NCBI RefSeq assembly: GCF_002764115.1
Contig: NZ_CP017940.1
Location: 2,888,501 to 2,952,500, forward strand
DNA from: Phyllobacterium zundukense
GTDB taxonomy: Bacteria > Pseudomonadota > Alphaproteobacteria > Rhizobiales > Rhizobiaceae
DNA length: 64,000 nucleotides
Reading direction: 5' to 3'
Positions 42,052 to 52,294 of this stretch are shown here, one piece after another. The stretch's first letter is position 1; the number at the start of each line of letters is the position of its first letter. The translations under genes and the position numbers were made by a program. The notes under the pieces are model-generated. The model worked only from the letters and a program-made list of their open reading frames with translations, was not told the origin of the DNA and made no database searches.

Positions 42052-43764
42052 ATGCCCGCTAATATCACCCGTTCCGCCTATGCCCGCATGTTCGGCCCGA
42101 CCACCGGCGACAAGGTGCGGCTTGCCGATACGGAGCTGTTCATCGAGGTGGAAAAGGACTTCACCGTCTACGGCGAAGAGGTGAAGTTCGGCGGCGGCAA
42201 GGTCATTCGCGACGGCATGGGCCAGAGCCAGGTTGCTCGCGCCGACGGTGCTGTCGATACGGTCATCACCAATGCGCTGATCGTCGATCATACCGGAATC
42301 TACAAGGCCGATGTCGGATTGAAGGACGGGCTGATCGTTGGCATCGGCAAGGCTGGAAACCCGGACACACAGCCCGGCGTGACCATCATCATCGGCCCGG
42401 GTACGGAAATCATCGCCAGCGAAGGCAAGATTCTCACGGCTGGCGGCATGGATGCGCATATCCACTTCATCTGCCCGCAGCAGATCGAGGAAGCGCTGAT
42501 GTCCGGCATCACGACCATGTTCGGTGGCGGCACAGGTCCGGCGCACGGAACACTGGCGACCACCTGCACACCCGGCCCCTGGCACATGGGACGGATGATC
42601 CAATCGTTCGACGCGATCCCGATGAATATCGGCCTCTCCGGCAAGGGCAATGCCTCGCAGCCGAAGGCGCTTGAGGAGATGATCCTTGGCGGCGCCTGCT
42701 CGCTCAAGCTGCATGAGGACTGGGGTACCACACCGGCGGCTATCGACAATTGCCTGTCGGTTGCCGATCAGTACGACGTGCAGGTGATGATCCACACCGA
42801 CACGCTGAACGAGAGCGGTTTTGTAGAGGACACTGTTGCCGCCTTCAAGGGCCGCACCATCCATGCCTTTCACACGGAAGGCGCAGGCGGTGGCCATGCG
42901 CCGGACATCATCAAGATCTGCGGCCTGCCCAACGTCATACCCTCATCGACCAACCCGACGCGGCCCTATACCAAGAACACCATTGCCGAACATCTCGACA
43001 TGCTGATGGTCTGCCATCACCTCTCCTCCTCGATCCCTGAGGACGTCGCCTTTGCCGAAAGTCGCATCCGCAAGGAAACGATTGCGGCGGAGGATATCCT
43101 GCACGATATCGGCGCGTTTTCGATTATCTCTTCCGACAGTCAGGCGATGGGCCGGGTTGGCGAAGTGCTGATCCGCACCTGGCAGACCGCCGACAAGATG
43201 AAGCGCCAGCGCGGGAGCCTGCCACAGGAGACGGGCGACAATGACAATTTCCGCGTGAAGCGCTATATCGCCAAATACACCATCAACCCGGCCATCGCGC
43301 AGGGCATTTCGCGGCATGTCGGCTCGATCGAGGTGGGCAAGCGCGCCGATCTCGTCCTATGGAATCCGGCCTTCTTCGGCATCAAGCCGGACATGGTCCT
43401 GCTCGGCGGCTCTATCGCGGCCGCGCCGATGGGCGATCCGAATGCCTCGATCCCGACGCCGCAGCCGGTGCACTATCGCTATATGTTCGGTGCCTATGGC
43501 AAGAATGTCAGCAATTCGTCGGTGACATTCGTCAGCAAGGCTTCGGTCGAAGCGGGCCTGCGCCAGTCGCTCGGCATCGACAAGCAGTTGATCGGCGTCG
43601 AGAATACGCGCGGCGGCATTTCCAAGGCCTCGATGATCCACAATGATGCAACACCGCATGTGGAGGTCGATCCGGAGACCTATGAAGTGCGAGCCGATGG
43701 TGAACTGTTGACTTGCGAGCCTGCGACGATACTACCTATGGCGCAGCGCTATTTCCTGTTCTGA
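42052..43764 (+). CDS. ureC: Urease alpha subunit (catalytic)
   Basis: The 570-aa nickel metallohydrolase subunit that splits urea to ammonia and carbamate. Visible sites are [12 protein letters not shown] (nickel His), [12 protein letters not shown] (the carbamylated lysine near residue 219), [35 protein letters not shown] (flap cysteine and histidine) and [16 protein letters not shown] ribosome-binding site precedes ATG 42052. It follows the antisense secreted gene, with which it shares a 175-nt divergent region, so it may have its own promoter. DinB and ureE follow. Confidence 0.97.
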
Positions 43765-47752: not shown

Positions 47753-48112
47753 CTAAAAATTAGAAAGTTGAACTTTTGCTTTTCCGCATATTTCTTTCGA
47801 CCCAGACTCTTCAGCCTTGTCGATGATTCCCGAAGCGAGATCCGATACAATTTCGACCGCTATGTCTTCCGGCAGACCGGTCTCTTTCATTCCGGCTATC
47901 ATTGCTGCTTCACTGGATTCGTCAGTTCCACATATATATGCCCTGGCCTCAAGAAGTGCCGCCCGTTCAAACTTCTTGTTGCTGACGTCGTTGCTCTCTT
48001 CCGGCGCCTGTACCTCATTCTTGATGTTGAAAGCATTGGCCGACGGCATCACTGCAGTCGAAGCCAATAGCCCCGCAGCCAGAATGGGTATCAATGATCT
48101 GTAAAAGCGCAT
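47753..48112 (-). CDS. Small secreted protein, unknown function
   Basis: A 119-aa exported protein. The signal peptide is MRFYRSLIPILAAGLLASTA followed by VMPSANA; the mature part is acidic (FNIKNEVQAPEESNDVSNKK) with two cysteines (AYICGTDESSE and SKEICGKAK) that could form a disulfide in the periplasm, and a helical GLPEDIAVEIVSDLASGIIDKAEE. The ATG at 48112 gives the cleanest signal peptide. No family is recognised. It is next to, and divergent from, the alpha-r14 sRNA region. Confidence 0.7.
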   Translation of the reverse strand: MRFYRSLIPILAAGLLASTAVMPSANAFNIKNEVQAPEESNDVSNKKFERAALLEARAYICGTDESSEAAMIAGMKETGLPEDIAVEIVSDLASGIIDKAEESGSKEICGKAKVQLSNF

Positions 48113-48258
48113 GATCCTGCCCCTTCCAATCATATCTGGAGGCTGGCGATAACCGCCATTGGCCTCGTTCATAGATAATTAACGGATCAGGGACTGGTTC
48201 CGTTCCAAATGCTTAGTCAATTGCCCGTGATTGGAGCGTGACGCTTTGGAAGCTGAAA

Positions 48259-48302
48259 TGCTGCAATGCACCAAACGCATTGCTGCTATGCAATATTGTC
48301 TG
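48259..48302 (+). promoter_or_regulatory. Two tandem 22-bp boxes upstream of the sRNA
   Basis: Two adjacent 22-bp repeats, 48259-48280 (TGCTGCAATGCACC...) and 48281-48302 (TGCTGCTATGCAATATTG...), lie about 40 nt before the first sRNA hairpin. The same pair with the same 22-bp period occurs at 52039-52082 before the DUF1127 gene; the second box here shares the 13-mer TGCTGCTATGCAA with the first box there. Partial dyad symmetry fits a LysR-type regulator. Confidence 0.6.
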
Positions 48303-48334
48303 TATTAAATCAGTTAGGTTGAGTTATTCTGTGA

Positions 48335-48458
48335 TCAGGAATTTTCGACAGCGTCACCTCCTCCCGGCTCTGTCGAAACGGATGGCCTCTTCTCCTCCCA
48401 GAAGGCCCTCCATAACCAACGAAACCCACCGCACCTCCTCCCGCGGTGGGTTTTGTTG
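48335..48458 (+). ncRNA. Alpha-r14 (suhB-type) small regulatory RNA
   Basis: Three consecutive stem-loops each present an anti-Shine-Dalgarno pyrimidine tract in the loop. Hairpin 1: TTCGACAG (48344-48351) with CTGTCGAA (48370-48377), loop containing CCTCCTCCC (48357-48365). Hairpin 2: GGCCT (48384-48388) with AGGCC (48403-48407), loop containing TCTCCTCCC. Hairpin 3: AACCCACCGC (48423-48432) with GCGGTGGGTT (48443-48452), loop ACCTCCTCCC, followed by TTGTTGTTT as terminator. This three-hairpin CCUCCUCCC design is the hallmark of the rhizobial alpha-r14 family (Smr14C/NfeR1; Rfam suhB), trans-acting repressors of ABC-transporter and other mRNAs. The 5' end is approximate. Confidence 0.9.
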
Positions 48459-48461
48459 TTT
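48423..48461 (+). terminator. Terminator of the alpha-r14 sRNA
   Basis: A perfect 10-bp stem AACCCACCGC / GCGGTGGGTT with a 10-nt loop is followed by TTGTTGTTT. It doubles as the third functional hairpin of the RNA. Confidence 0.88.
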
Positions 48462-48602
48462 CAGGACCTCCCAAAATGTCTGCCGCTAAAGTTGCGACGC
48501 CCGCTGTTGCGGCCGGGTCTTGCGGTCAGCAAATCATCATTTGGCGTAAAAACGCCGCCTGCAACAGATGTTGAAGGCGGCGCGTGACCAGTTCCTATGC
48601 AA

Positions 48603-48815
48603 TTACTGTGCGGCAGCAGGTTTCGCCGCTGTCTTGGCTGCCGCATCCTTTGCGGCAACCTCAGGCGCTGCCCGCGTTGTCAGCGATTTGGGCGGCGGGA
48701 CATAATAGGTGTCCTTGGCTGGCAGTGGCCCTGTGGCGGTCGTCGTCTTTGGTTGCGTCGTGCAACCGGCAACAAGGATAAGAGACAGGGCAACAAGGGG
48801 CAGTACTAAACGCAT
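48603..48815 (-). CDS. Small lipoprotein
   Basis: A 70-aa lipoprotein precursor. The signal peptide MRLVLPLVALSLILVAGCTT contains the lipobox LVAGC, so Cys18 should be lipidated. The mature part is short, with TYYVPPPKSL and a low-complexity Ala/Lys tail (AAKDAAAKTAAKPAAAQ). An AGGAA Shine-Dalgarno (AAAGGAACTCG before the ATG) supports the start. Function unknown; likely an outer- or inner-membrane-anchored small protein. Confidence 0.8.
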   Translation of the reverse strand: MRLVLPLVALSLILVAGCTTQPKTTTATGPLPAKDTYYVPPPKSLTTRAAPEVAAKDAAAKTAAKPAAAQ

Positions 48816-48934
48816 TCGAGTTCCTTTGCATAATGCGCCAGCGATGACGCTGGCCTTGCACGGTGCGCCACACGATGACGCTGGAGAATCGGTTCCGGTT
48901 GACCATCCAATCGTGGCGATACCACGTCAACCGA

Positions 48935-50191
48935 TCAGCGAATCAGGATGGCGCGCAAATCGTTGACGTTCGTGCCAGTTGGACCGGGCACGAACAGGTC
49001 ATCAATTGCATTGAACGCGGTCCAGGCATCGTTGCTGTTCAGATAAGCCAAGGCGTCATGGCCCTTGGCGAGCAGCCGGGCGATGGTGGTACTGTCGGCA
49101 AAAGCGCCGGCATTGTCCTCAGACCCGTCTATACCATCGGTATCGGCCGCAAAGGCACTGATGCCATCTGCCCCGTCGATATCGATGGCAAGCGACAGCA
49201 GGAACTCGCTGTTGCGCCCGCCCTTGCCCTTGCCGCGTACCGTCACCGTGGTTTCCCCGCCAGAGAGAATAACAACGGGTTTGGTGAATGGCTGGTTTTT
49301 TGCAAGGACCTGCTTGGCCAGAGCCGCATGGACATGAGCGACTTCGCGCGCCTCGCCCTCGATGGCGTCGGAGAGGATAACCGCTTCGACGCCCAAATTG
49401 CGTGCTGCCTTCGCGGCAGCTTCGAGCGATACGGCAGCCGAGGCAACCAGATGATGCTCATGGCCGGTAAAGACCGCATCGGAGGGTTTGGGAGCGTCGG
49501 CTTTTTCCGACCGGAGATGCGCCAAGGCTGCCTGCGGCAAGTCAAGATTGTAGCGTTCGACGATGCGCAGCGCGTCCTCCCGCGTCGTTTCGTCGGTGAC
49601 GGTCGGGCCGGACGCGACGAATGCGGGATTGTCGCCGGGAATATCCGAAACGATCAATGAAAATACCCGTGCCGGATGCGCGGCCGCCGCAAGGCGCCCG
49701 CCCTTGATGGTCGAGAGATGCTTGCGCACCGCATTCATCGCCGAGATCGGCGCACCCGATGCGAGCAGGACCTTGTTGACCGCGATTTCATCTTCCAGGG
49801 TCATGCCTTCCGGCGGCGCCGGAAGGAGTGCAGAGCCGCCTCCAGAAATCAACGCCACGACCAGATCGTCTGCCGTCAGACCGGATACGGTTTCAAGCAA
49901 GCGCTTCGAGGCGACAAGTCCTGCAGCGTCCGGAACCGGATGCGAGGCTTCGATGATCTCGATGTGCTTGCAGGGTGCGCCGAAGCCATAGCGGGTGACG
50001 ACGACACCTTCGAGTGGGCCATCCCAGACTTTCTCGAAAGCGCTCGCCATCTGCGCCGAGCCCTTGCCGGCACCGACGACGATCGTCCGGCCTTTCGGCT
50101 TCGGCGGCAGATGCGCCGCAATGGTCCGTTCGGGATCGGCGGCCTCGACAGCAGCCTGAAAAAGCTTGGTGAAGAATTCCTTGTCCTGCAT
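48935..50191 (-). CDS. Glycerate 2-kinase / hydroxypyruvate-related kinase (MOFRL family)
   Basis: A 418-aa enzyme of the GckA/TtuD (DUF4147-MOFRL) family that phosphorylates D-glycerate. Seen: VVGAGKGSAQMASAFEKVW, VVTRYGFGAPCKHIEIIEASHPVPDAAG, LVVALISGGGSALLPAPPEGMTLED, IVSDIPGDNPAFVASGPTVTD, and the C-terminal MOFRL block VVILSGGETTVTVRGKGKGGRNSEFLL and AFAADTDGIDGSEDNAGAF. The start at 50191 (MQDKEFFTKLF) overlaps the upstream Dabb gene by a few nt on the complementary coordinates, so the two are probably coupled. It may take glycerate arising from glyoxylate or tartrate metabolism. Confidence 0.92.
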   Translation of the reverse strand: MQDKEFFTKLFQAAVEAADPERTIAAHLPPKPKGRTIVVGAGKGSAQMASAFEKVWDGPLEGVVVTRYGFGAPCKHIEIIEASHPVPDAAGLVASKRLLETVSGLTADDLVVALISGGGSALLPAPPEGMTLEDEIAVNKVLLASGAPISAMNAVRKHLSTIKGGRLAAAAHPARVFSLIVSDIPGDNPAFVASGPTVTDETTREDALRIVERYNLDLPQAALAHLRSEKADAPKPSDAVFTGHEHHLVASAAVSLEAAAKAARNLGVEAVILSDAIEGEAREVAHVHAALAKQVLAKNQPFTKPVVILSGGETTVTVRGKGKGGRNSEFLLSLAIDIDGADGISAFAADTDGIDGSEDNAGAFADSTTIARLLAKGHDALAYLNSNDAWTAFNAIDDLFVPGPTGTNVNDLRAILIR

Positions 50192-50195
50192 GTTC

Positions 50196-50507
50196 TCAAA
50201 CTTCCAGATCAAAAACAAAAACGCCGTCCGTACCGCCTGCCGTGGAAGCCACGATGCGGCCCGCTATAGCCTGGTGTTCGGGGTGAACGAGATAGGCATC
50301 GCGTGCAGCTGCGTCAGCAAAATCGAGCACAAAACCTTCGGAAAAGCCCTTATCCATTCCGGTTTCGGGACTGACGTTCAAACCGGAATGTATCGTCAAG
50401 GCGCCCGGCAGTTTTGCGCACAATACCTCAAGATCGCTGTAAATGGAGTGCCGGTCGGTCGCTGGAACGTCGTCGCGGAAACGGAGAAAGACACAATGAC
50501 GGATCAC
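50196..50507 (-). CDS. Dabb-family (stress-responsive A/B barrel) protein
   Basis: A 103-aa dimeric alpha+beta barrel protein: MIRHCVFLRFRDDVPATDR at the N-terminus and the conserved block GFSEGFVLDFADAAARDAYLVHPEHQAIA. The family includes stress-responsive proteins and small cyclases of unknown substrate. It ends 4 nt before the glycerate kinase start on the same strand, so the two are likely one operon. Function otherwise unassigned. Confidence 0.88.
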   Translation of the reverse strand: MIRHCVFLRFRDDVPATDRHSIYSDLEVLCAKLPGALTIHSGLNVSPETGMDKGFSEGFVLDFADAAARDAYLVHPEHQAIAGRIVASTAGGTDGVFVFDLEV

Positions 50508-50646
50508 GAGCAGAAACTTTCTTTAAGCAGCATGCGAACAGATGGAATGGTGAATTGACTTCCCGGTTGCGCATCCTGACCAGATTGCCGGAAATTGCGA
50601 GCGCTAATTCCTGCTGTCCCAAAATAACAGCGGGCAAATCCCCTGA

Positions 50647-51957
50647 CTATACCGATTTGGATAGAAGCTGTTCCACGGACAGCGCCATAGCAAGGAACCG
50701 GCGGTCCGCACCATGTCGCGCCAACAGCATCAATCCGCCCGGCAGAGGCAGACCAGGCATCGGCAGGCTGATTGCTGTCAGATCGAATTGATTGGCGACC
50801 TGCGTATTGCGCAGAAGCAGGCCTTCGGTGTGTTTGTAAAATTCGTCGCTTTCCGACGCTGACGCGATAAGTGGCGCAGCGATTGGCGAGGTTGGCAAGG
50901 CCAGCATATCGTATTCGGCGATCCGGCCGTCCATTTGCCGCACAAGTGCCTGCCGCTTCTGCATCACATTGACATAATCAGCTTCGGAAACGCTCAAACG
51001 CCGCAAGAGCGGGCGCCTCACGCGCTGGTCGACATCAAGCGTCTCATCGTGCAGCCATCCGGCATGGACTCTCGATCCTTCAATACCGGCAATCGAGCCT
51101 ACCGAAGTGGCATCGGCCATTGAGCCGATCAGATCATCGATTGAACATTCGACAATGATCGCGCCTGCATTTGCAAAGGCCTTGAGATTTTGTTCGAAGG
51201 CATCGGCGATCGGCTTCTCCACCGCCTCGAACAGCTGCCCTGGGGGCACGCCGATGCGCAGGCCGTTCAAGGAAACAGGCTCAGGGCTGTTAATCGCCTC
51301 CCCCGCCATAATAGCGTCGGCCAGCGCACAATCGGAAACGGAACGCGCCAGTGGTCCAATGGAATCGAGACTGGGCGACAGCGGAAAGGCCCCTCGCAAC
51401 GGCACGCGTTTCGCCGTGGGTTTGAAGCCGACGACACCATTCAACGCCGCCGGGATGCGGACCGAACCGCCGGTATCCGATCCAATAGAGATTTCGCTTG
51501 TGCCTTCCGCCACCGATACGCCAGCGCCGGTCGACGAACCGCCCGCAATCCGGTCCGGATCAACGGCATTGCCCGCAACCGGAAAATGCGGGTTCAGCCC
51601 GACAGCGGTGAAGGCAAATTCAGTCATGGTCGTCTTGCCGATGATGACCGCTCCTGCGGCCCGCAATCTTTCGACAACGATTGCGTCGCTCGTTGCTGGC
51701 GCAGCGGTTTGCCGAATGATCGATCCCGCCAGGGTCGGCTCACCAGTGATGTCGAAAAGATCCTTGATCGAGACAATCCGCCCATCAAGCGGCCCGAGAC
51801 TCGCGCCTTCCTCCCTACGCTTGTCGGCAGCATCAGCTTCCCTGCGGGCCGTATCAGGATAGAGCCTTGCAAAAACACGCTCGTCGGCTTCACGCCCGAT
51901 GAGACGCGACAGGATATGTTCGAGCCTATCTCGGGCGGACGGTGATGGCTGGGGCAA
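50647..51957 (-). CDS. Amidase signature family hydrolase
   Basis: A 436-aa enzyme with the Ser-cisSer-Lys triad: Lys in GRIVSIKDLFDITGEPTLAGS, the Ser pair region IAGGSSTGAGVSVAEG, and the nucleophile region SIGSDTGGSVRIPAALNGVVGFKPT. Length and layout match amidases/Asn-tRNA amidotransferase A-like hydrolases; without partner genes gatB and gatC it is a stand-alone amidase. It hydrolyses a carboxamide of unknown identity. Monocistronic, minus strand, with the DUF1127 control boxes just upstream of it on the other strand. Confidence 0.9.
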   Translation of the reverse strand: MPQPSPSARDRLEHILSRLIGREADERVFARLYPDTARREADAADKRREEGASLGPLDGRIVSIKDLFDITGEPTLAGSIIRQTAAPATSDAIVVERLRAAGAVIIGKTTMTEFAFTAVGLNPHFPVAGNAVDPDRIAGGSSTGAGVSVAEGTSEISIGSDTGGSVRIPAALNGVVGFKPTAKRVPLRGAFPLSPSLDSIGPLARSVSDCALADAIMAGEAINSPEPVSLNGLRIGVPPGQLFEAVEKPIADAFEQNLKAFANAGAIIVECSIDDLIGSMADATSVGSIAGIEGSRVHAGWLHDETLDVDQRVRRPLLRRLSVSEADYVNVMQKRQALVRQMDGRIAEYDMLALPTSPIAAPLIASASESDEFYKHTEGLLLRNTQVANQFDLTAISLPMPGLPLPGGLMLLARHGADRRFLAMALSVEQLLSKSV

Positions 51958-52038
51958 TGGTTTTTCCTGACGTGCTGAAAGCTTTCAGTTTCTCTATAGC
52001 CCGACGACACCACGGGTTGAAGACCCGGCGTAAAAGCC

Positions 52039-52082
52039 TGCTGCTATGCAACATAGGCAATGCTGCTTTGCAACATTGGCAA
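52039..52082 (+). promoter_or_regulatory. Two tandem 22-bp boxes upstream of the DUF1127 gene
   Basis: Direct repeats at 52039-52060 and 52061-52082 differ at only two of 22 positions; the first begins TGCTGCTATGCAACATAG, containing the perfect dyad CTATG-CAA-CATAG. They lie about 70 nt before the DUF1127 ATG. A matching pair precedes the alpha-r14 sRNA at 48259-48302. Shape and spacing fit a LysR-family operator such as that of VtlR, known in Brucella to control an sRNA and DUF1127 genes. Confidence 0.65.
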
Positions 52083-52150
52083 TTTTCAATCGATGCAACT
52101 CAAAGCATAGTTTCTCCCAGGGAGGGCAATAAAATAAAGGGGTATGAACA

Positions 52151-52294
52151 ATGAGCCTTCGCCACCGCATCCAAAAGTATCGTCAGTACCGGCAGAATCT
52201 TCACGAGCTGCGCCTTTGCACGGATCGCAATCTTGCTGATCTCGGCATCGCCCGCACCGACATTCGCCGCATCGCCTGGGCGGCCTGCAACTAA
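52151..52294 (+). CDS. DUF1127 small arginine-rich protein
   Basis: A 47-aa protein, MSLRHRIQKYRQYRQNLHEL, continuing with RLCTDRNLADLGIARTDIRR and IAWAACN. The ending R-x-L-x-D-x-G-I-x-R-x-D-I motif is the DUF1127 signature. These small proteins in alphaproteobacteria are linked to RNA turnover, phosphate/carbon balance and virulence. An overlapping ATG at 52143 is out of frame. A terminator follows and tandem regulatory boxes precede it, so it is an independent unit. Confidence 0.92.
   Translation: MSLRHRIQKYRQYRQNLHELRLCTDRNLADLGIARTDIRRIAWAACN

Follow-up and report, generated by a model that had tools for sequence, protein, structure and literature searches.

A 22-bp tandem promoter element shared by the ar14 small RNA and a DUF1127 gene of Phyllobacterium zundukense, a probable LsrB operator

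Why should a gene for a regulatory RNA and a gene for a very small protein, 3.7 kb apart, carry the same pair of adjacent 22-bp boxes in front of them, and which protein might read those boxes? The question is raised by a 64,000-nucleotide stretch of the Phyllobacterium zundukense genome (NZ_CP017940.1, positions 2,888,501 to 2,952,500, forward strand; hereafter the window, numbered from its first letter), where one pair precedes the small RNA (sRNA) ar14 and the other precedes a gene of the DUF1127 family. We believe, with a probability of about 0.83, that each 22-bp tandem constitutes one operator for the regulator LsrB (VtlR), which would activate ar14 and the DUF1127 gene from separate promoters. 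The features on which this argument depends are as follows.

48259 to 48302, plus strand: two 22-bp units upstream of ar14 (direct reading; tandem search)
52039 to 52082, plus strand: two 22-bp units upstream of the DUF1127 gene (direct reading; tandem search)
48262 to 48292, plus strand: candidate composite operator of ar14, TGCAATGCACCAAACGCATTGCTGCTATGCA, with no mismatch to TGCNNTGCAN6GCAWNGCNGCNNTGCA (pattern search)
52042 to 52072, plus strand: candidate composite operator of the DUF1127 gene, TGCTATGCAACATAGGCAATGCTGCTTTGCA, with no mismatch (pattern search)
48339 to 48458, plus strand: ar14 sRNA (NfeR1 family, RF02344; Rfam 81.8 bits, cut-off 58.8)
52151 to 52294, plus strand: DUF1127 protein of 47 amino acids (Pfam PF06568, 39.2 bits, cut-off 23.3)

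A conserved composite element before two genes

The boxes upstream of ar14 read TGCTGCAATGCACCAAACGCAT (from 48259) and TGCTGCTATGCAATATTGTCTG (from 48281), and those upstream of the DUF1127 gene read TGCTGCTATGCAACATAGGCAA (from 52039) and TGCTGCTTTGCAACATTGGCAA (from 52061). An earlier note on this DNA had described both pairs, a common period, a difference of two positions in 22 within the DUF1127 pair and a 13-mer shared between the pairs, and direct reading bears out each of these points: the period is 22 in each pair, 2 of 22 positions are unlike in the DUF1127 pair, and the shared 13-mer, TGCTGCTATGCAA, is located at 48281 and 52039. The genome-wide search that the note had proposed finds the tandem pattern, with up to three mismatches, twice in the 6.2-Mb genome, exactly at the two window pairs, and the reversed control pattern not at all. 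The single core TGCTGCWWTGCA, searched in the window with up to two mismatches, is not enriched there (34 matches, with 26.1 +/- 5.8 expected; 10 of 100 shuffles reach 34), and its four exact matches in the window are the four boxes.

Conservation within the genus defines the element more closely. Nineteen same-genus relatives were drawn; in 18 of them the ar14 copy taken first was the syntenic one, and the alignments hold 19 rows (this genome and those 18); the row of G010, which is a different ar14 copy, was left out of the identity and spacing counts, and the other ar14 copy of that genome (L120) fits the composite by reading. The glycerate-kinase-like gene and the DUF1127 gene are in place in all 18 syntenic relatives. 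Mean pairwise identity across the 44 bp of the ar14 pair is 90.6%, compared with 60.9% in the 60 bp upstream, and the corresponding values for the DUF1127 pair are 77.0% and 49.4%. The 34-bp core of the ar14 operator has identical spacing in 19 of 19 rows, and no row has an insertion or deletion within either box pair, as judged by reading the alignment; the spacing of the DUF1127 pair comes from a pattern match in 17 of 19 rows and from the alignment in the other two (G009, G013).

What is conserved is the composite TGCNNTGCA-N6-GCAWNGCNGCNNTGCA, a full proximal palindrome with a partial distal copy 22 bp away. Because the alignments show unequal 22-mers, and because relatives have not retained the initial TGC of the upstream DUF1127 box, we describe each site as one composite (48262 to 48292 and 52042 to 52072); the view of two equal boxes is a choice of frame.

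LsrB as the probable reader of the element

This element can be compared with several published sites (PMC10746234, PMC8844928, PMC7486931 and PMC12595884). The NfeR1 RNA of Sinorhizobium meliloti is an ar14 RNA and is activated by LsrB, whose motif at PnfeR1, TGCA-N6-GCAT, is placed at -72 to -60 and also at -72 to -57 (PMC10746234). A VtlR/LsrB box, GCAT-N3-TG-N3-T, has been given (PMC7486931), and at S. meliloti PabcR1 LsrB activates AbcR1 with the box at -61 to -49, where a tandem T-N11-A was also noted (PMC8844928). These motifs map to the window as follows, with the transcription start (+1) of ar14 taken as the 5' end of its Rfam match (48339).

48267 to 48280, plus strand: TGCA-N6-GCAT, the S. 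meliloti LsrB motif of PnfeR1, at -72 to -59 if +1 is 48339
48277 to 48289, plus strand: GCAT-N3-TG-N3-T, the published VtlR/LsrB box, exact, at -62 to -50 if +1 is 48339
52057 to 52069, plus strand: the same box with one mismatch, GCAATGCTGCTTT (GCAA for GCAT), by motif position mapping
48324 to 48329, plus strand: putative -10 element TTATTC

Provided that the Rfam 5' end is the transcription start, the published motifs in the ar14 operator fall within about -72 to -50, as LsrB sites do in Sinorhizobium. A sigma-70 scan gave no promoter-like pairs in either the ar14 region or the DUF1127 region.

The genome encodes a single LsrB ortholog (C1:872261-873154), and the next LysR protein is only 29% identical. 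This ortholog is 70% identical to Agrobacterium tumefaciens LsrB (PDB 9HH1), and its SQSAISRQVSALEQDVG segment is identical. Its closest listed matches are 96-99% identical and nearly all from Phyllobacterium. A contig titled Bacillus subtilis strain SK6B4 (L166) also encodes an LsrB, 80% identical to the query, in a record that is probably contaminated or mislabelled. The lsrB gene lies directly upstream of an ar15 sRNA, and because it adjoins lsrB we take this ar15 copy to be AbcR1 by position.

The possibility must be weighed that another LysR-type regulator, or an unrelated one, reads the operator. T-N11-A motifs occur generally in the LysR family, the genome encodes many such proteins (LsrB has 26 further matches at E <= 1e-20), and the DUF1127 site is one base off the published box. 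We nevertheless judge this explanation improbable, given that the ar14 element matches motifs from LsrB and VtlR binding experiments at equal positions, that the element recurs in 28 of 31 lsrB-abcR1 regions, and that 237 of the 247 genomes of the family carry lsrB.

LysR-type regulators characteristically combine a recognition site with an activation site. If LsrB reads the composite, one dimer of a LysR tetramer would sit on the recognition site and the other on the activation site, both close before the promoter; the palindromes are two helical turns apart and would therefore present the same face of the DNA. Tetramers are expected for LsrB, and dimers were captured without DNA (PMC11975290). 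LsrB, a redox-responsive activator of the LysR type whose gene lies elsewhere in the genome beside that of the AbcR1-type sRNA, would then activate both window genes, for the anti-Shine-Dalgarno (anti-SD) sRNA ar14 and for the small DUF1127 protein, and also AbcR1 and two DUF1127-ar14 units. This joint induction would probably follow oxidative or metabolic stress, in keeping with descriptions of LsrB, and the induced ar14 sRNA would block ribosome-binding sites.

A somewhat stronger competitor, although one we still consider unlikely, is that the proximal palindrome alone is the LsrB site and that the distal copy is what a duplication left behind or serves a second protein such as NtrC. The published boxes describe one site, and the distal arm is weaker in abcR1 regions. 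Moreover, NtrC competes with LsrB at S. meliloti PnfeR1, and a TGC-N11-GCG stretch at 48223-48239 is one base from the NtrC motif TGC-N11-GCA. However, the distal arm is kept in 19 of 19 ar14 rows, the 22-bp spacing is dominant in a free-gap search (see below), and the tandem T-N11-A at PabcR1 had been noted by others (PMC8844928). The genus alignment shows no conservation of the NtrC-like stretch, and the NfeR1 paper reports that its NtrC signature is not evident in Agrobacterium or Brucella (PMC10746234). An NtrC site at 48223-48239 was set aside as an unconserved near-match. A second conserved block, TCAA-N6-GTGAT followed by TGA, spans 48215-48242 upstream of the ar14 operator in the genus alignment, and perhaps belongs to the promoter of a divergent 139-amino-acid open reading frame (ORF) at 47753-48172.

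The element across the genome, the family and the order

Searching the whole genome with up to three mismatches, the composite yields 14 matches compared with 2 for the control. The best are the two window sites (no mismatch each) and two DUF1127-ar14 units, at C1:1549 kb (one mismatch) and C1:372 kb (two mismatches). Ten matches have three mismatches, and these include the weaker AbcR1 operator (C1:873279-873309), an overlapping reverse match at the window ar14 site, and a match adjoining a 54-amino-acid DUF1127-like ORF at C1:3423 kb (L218:1279-1440; Pfam 15.9 bits, below the cut-off). Three of the nine DUF1127 genes above the Pfam cut-off have an operator at two mismatches or fewer, and the other six have nothing better than six mismatches within 400 bp.

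In the C1:372 kb unit the operator is inverted relative to the gene. This, and the position of the units upstream of the Rfam-given 5' end of ar14, argue strongly against a role of the palindromes in the transcript as an RNA element; the units are indeed palindromic, and yet we consider such a role very improbable.

A free-standing ar14 copy at C1:897653-897767 (L054) has a different upstream palindrome, TTTGCATAGCTATTATGCA-like, which resembles the proximal unit alone and not the composite, and a similar palindrome occurs in four same-genus relatives (L113, L115, L117, L119). Another copy, C1:2879620-2879737 (L055), lies by eye directly behind a phasin gene with no LsrB operator visible. The same phasin-ar14 arrangement is seen by eye in L092, L093, L105, L118 and L121, and suggests an sRNA derived from the 3' untranslated region of a phasin gene.

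At the level of the family, the composite with at most one mismatch is found in 129 of 247 genomes, compared with 2 of 247 for the reversed control; the pattern had been drawn from the sites here and in relatives before the family search, and these counts speak for its specificity and are not proof of LsrB binding. In an order-level sample of 199 genomes, seven of which belong to the family, 40 have the composite, with no control match seen. When the gap between the two arms was left free (0-30), 83 of 127 exact matches had the 6-nt gap that gives the 22-bp period, and the next commonest gaps were 12 (nine matches), 5 (seven) and 7 (six).

Two similar copies 3.8 kb apart might be taken for a dispersed repeat, or for a recent local duplication that came to lie before two genes by chance. 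The earlier note had itself raised the dispersed repeat, in the form of many occurrences in unrelated intergenic places. This explanation is contradicted by the data and can be given almost no weight: only two strict copies were found in the genome, and across the genus each of them is kept where it stands. In other genera, too, the composite precedes genes of these types. The dispersed repeat is also rejected on the family counts given above, and the tandem is a promoter element.

The lsrB-abcR1 regions of this genome and its 30 best-matching relatives offer a comparison of position. In 28 of these 31 regions the best composite match (1-5 mismatches) starts 94-102 nt before the anti-SD motif, and the corresponding distance at the window ar14 is 97 nt. 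Of the other three, one has its match elsewhere and two are without an anti-SD motif.

We also inspected the neighbours of 70 of the family matches listed (the first 30 and the next 40 in listing order), one of which (L342, the same place as L102) had already been seen when the pattern was made. An ar14 or ar15 sRNA above the Rfam cut-off accompanies 51 of them (28 of the first 30 and 23 of the next 40); in two of these (L330, L333) a DUF1127 gene is the direct neighbour and the convergent ar14 lies at a greater distance. A clear DUF1127 gene without such an sRNA adjoins four, a homolog of the 54-amino-acid DUF1127-like protein six, and an ORF with a sub-threshold DUF1127 match four, so that 65 of 70 adjoin ar14, ar15, DUF1127 or DUF1127-like ORFs. 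The operator is inverted relative to the gene in places (e.g. L241, L242, L326), and at L228, L312 and L316 a DUF1127 gene is followed by a CTCCTCCC motif with no ar14 call.

Several side observations emerged from these loci. ORFs of 54-55 amino acids that are DUF1127-like and below the Pfam cut-off stand beside composites at L218, L313, L315, L324 and L343, with a further one at L329 that has no Pfam hit, and the operator may help to find such small proteins. Downstream of a single DUF1127 gene there are six tandem ar14 copies at L236 and seven at L233. A Pfam-confirmed phasin gene is divergent beside the composite operator at L325.

A number of findings weigh against LsrB as the common reader of this element. 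The exact GCAT-N3-TG-N3-T box is absent from the 400 bp upstream of the window DUF1127 gene, and among 18 relatives the GCAT position of that operator is GCAA in eight and TCAW in ten; the wider composite has no mismatch at the window gene. In this genome, seven of the ten three-mismatch matches have no ar14 or ar15 and no other visible reason to be targets, no operator could be seen by eye at two further ar14 copies that exceed the cut-off (one at C2:508 kb, the other following a phasin-like gene), and the composite matches include just one of the three ar15 copies. Ten of the 65 family matches with expected neighbours rest on DUF1127-like ORFs of the below-cut-off kind, and 5 of 70 are near no expected gene (L231, L323, L325, L329, L347); L231 adjoins a transporter-like ORF, L325 the divergent phasin gene and L329 a 54-amino-acid ORF that is DUF1127-like by eye. 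In an Agrobacterium-like genome (G231) whose LsrB is 99% identical to 9HH1, the best composite has four mismatches at abcR1 and four to six at DUF1127. A. tumefaciens LsrB also binds the katG/oxyR region (PMC11975290), a target type that did not turn up in the composite search. Because the composites of G231 are this weak, the full composite is not obligatory, and, with the katG/oxyR binding, exclusivity does not hold in every lineage for either the distal unit or the gene class.

Brucella offers a further comparison. The VtlR motif described there, CAATGCAGCCATGCA (PMC12595884), occurs with up to two mismatches before three DUF1127 genes (L281, L282, L303) in two of three Brucella relatives, for which 9 of 14 DUF1127 matches were examined as loci. 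It also occurs, at the same threshold, before one DUF1127 gene of the present genome (L003).

A largely known circuit with a separated gene pair

The earlier note had regarded the two box pairs as the local version of the VtlR circuit, now linking a different sRNA family. The first part agrees with the evidence, in that the element matches LsrB and VtlR sites in sequence and, for ar14, in position, that there is one LsrB ortholog, and that the family-wide link is to DUF1127 genes and anti-SD sRNAs. An exchange of sRNAs does not hold. AbcR1-type ar15 is still present beside lsrB, which makes ar14 a target added to it, and LsrB control of ar14 had been described before (PMC10746234).

Comparison with known systems makes clear what is shared. 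The regulation of NfeR1 by LsrB in S. meliloti resembles the present case in sRNA family, in the TGCA-N6-GCAT motif at a matching distance from the assumed start, and in the LsrB ortholog. Unlike the two-unit operator shared here with a DUF1127 gene, one motif is described in the available part of that work, and no conserved NtrC site is seen in the window ar14 region. S. meliloti LsrB-AbcR1 is similar in box position and tandem T-N11-A, and differs in that its target is ar15. The VtlR regulon of Brucella and Agrobacterium comprises an AbcR sRNA and DUF1127-type genes (PMC12595884, PMC7486931), and it therefore shares with the window an sRNA and DUF1127-type genes under one LysR activator, as well as the box GCAT-N3-TG-N3-T, whereas the window sRNA is ar14 and not AbcR (ar15).

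Linkage of a DUF1127 gene to CcsR-like sRNAs is known from the ccaF1-CcsR1-4 operon of Rhodobacter sphaeroides, which has an RpoHI/RpoHII promoter, and from the CIN1 locus or cuckoo RNA arrangement (PMC10253847). The CIN1 arrangement, a DUF1127 gene followed by an anti-SD sRNA, is found in the Phyllobacterium units at C1:372 kb and C1:1549 kb. The window DUF1127 gene is without a directly downstream sRNA and lies outside that definition: no CTCCTCCC motif occurs within 500 nt downstream of the start of its DUF1127 domain, it is apparently monocistronic, and it and ar14 are 3.7 kb apart with separate promoters. A strong hairpin (z -4.9) lies 3' of the gene, where a terminator scan found no site.

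The ar14 RNA itself folds into three hairpins (-55.3 kcal/mol, z -9.3) and carries three CTCCTCCC motifs, with hairpins bearing CCUCCUCCC-type motifs as expected for RF02344. The third hairpin is presumably the terminator, and the terminator scan marks it on the minus strand only. The DUF1127 leader carries a further motif, listed here.

52120 to 52125, plus strand: GGGAGG in the DUF1127 leader, found 27-35 nt ahead of the start codon in 19 of 19 rows

This motif is distinct from an AAGGGG closer to the start. As a lead only, it could pair with the CCUCC motifs of ar14 and form a possible feed-forward loop. In five of the 19 species the predicted duplex was no better than shuffles (44, 20, 52, 5 and 41 of 200 were as good or better), in a crude test where duplexfold ignores internal structure and the shuffles are mononucleotide. 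On the opposite strand between ar14 and the DUF1127 gene are a MOFRL/DUF4147 glycerate-kinase-like gene, an amidase gene and small ORFs. Elsewhere in the window, an Rfam match to 5_ureB_sRNA lies at 42204-42493 on the minus strand (129.4 bits).

Much of this circuit is already in print, namely the control of NfeR1 (ar14) and AbcR1 by LsrB, the control of DUF1127-type genes by VtlR, and the CIN1 linkage. The new elements are the unified 22-bp operator, the strong association of that operator with genes for DUF1127 proteins and anti-SD sRNAs, and the occurrence of the two genes as a separated pair in Phyllobacterium. No literature joining NfeR1 with DUF1127 was found, in a search that lacked most subscription papers and is weak evidence of novelty, and the two-unit 22-bp operator is not described in the literature found, though the available part of PMC8844928 notes the tandem T-N11-A at PabcR1. 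The window pair clearly adds a new case to a circuit that is for the most part known, and relatives have the same wiring.

A broader proposal, which we offer only tentatively, is that LsrB/VtlR is the master of one module of DUF1127 proteins and the anti-SD sRNAs ar14 and ar15. It would control this module through a single composite operator whose two units are set 22 bp apart, and the published motifs would be pieces of that operator. Such an operator would point to unrecognised DUF1127-like small proteins, and the protein of the monocistronic DUF1127 gene of Phyllobacterium may work in trans on the sRNAs that belong to this regulon. DUF1127 proteins of Rhodobacter are reported to bind RNA and to aid sRNA maturation (PMC10253847), and those of Agrobacterium to act through the PhoR kinase (PMC12501420). 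Because A. tumefaciens LsrB also binds katG/oxyR, we hold the proposal of one module to be doubtful.

LsrB/VtlR matters for the host interaction of symbionts and pathogens. Genes linked to it by expression number more than 250 in one A. tumefaciens study (PMC7486931) and 1766 after peroxide in another, and few direct sites are known (the first study gave three promoters, to which the second added katG/oxyR). Across the family this specific operator leads for the most part to DUF1127 and anti-SD sRNA genes, which suggests that the core of the direct regulon is a compact module of RNA control. A further implication is that control of 'DUF1127 genes' by VtlR can bring a co-transcribed ar14 sRNA with it, and the two would have to be separated in mutant studies.

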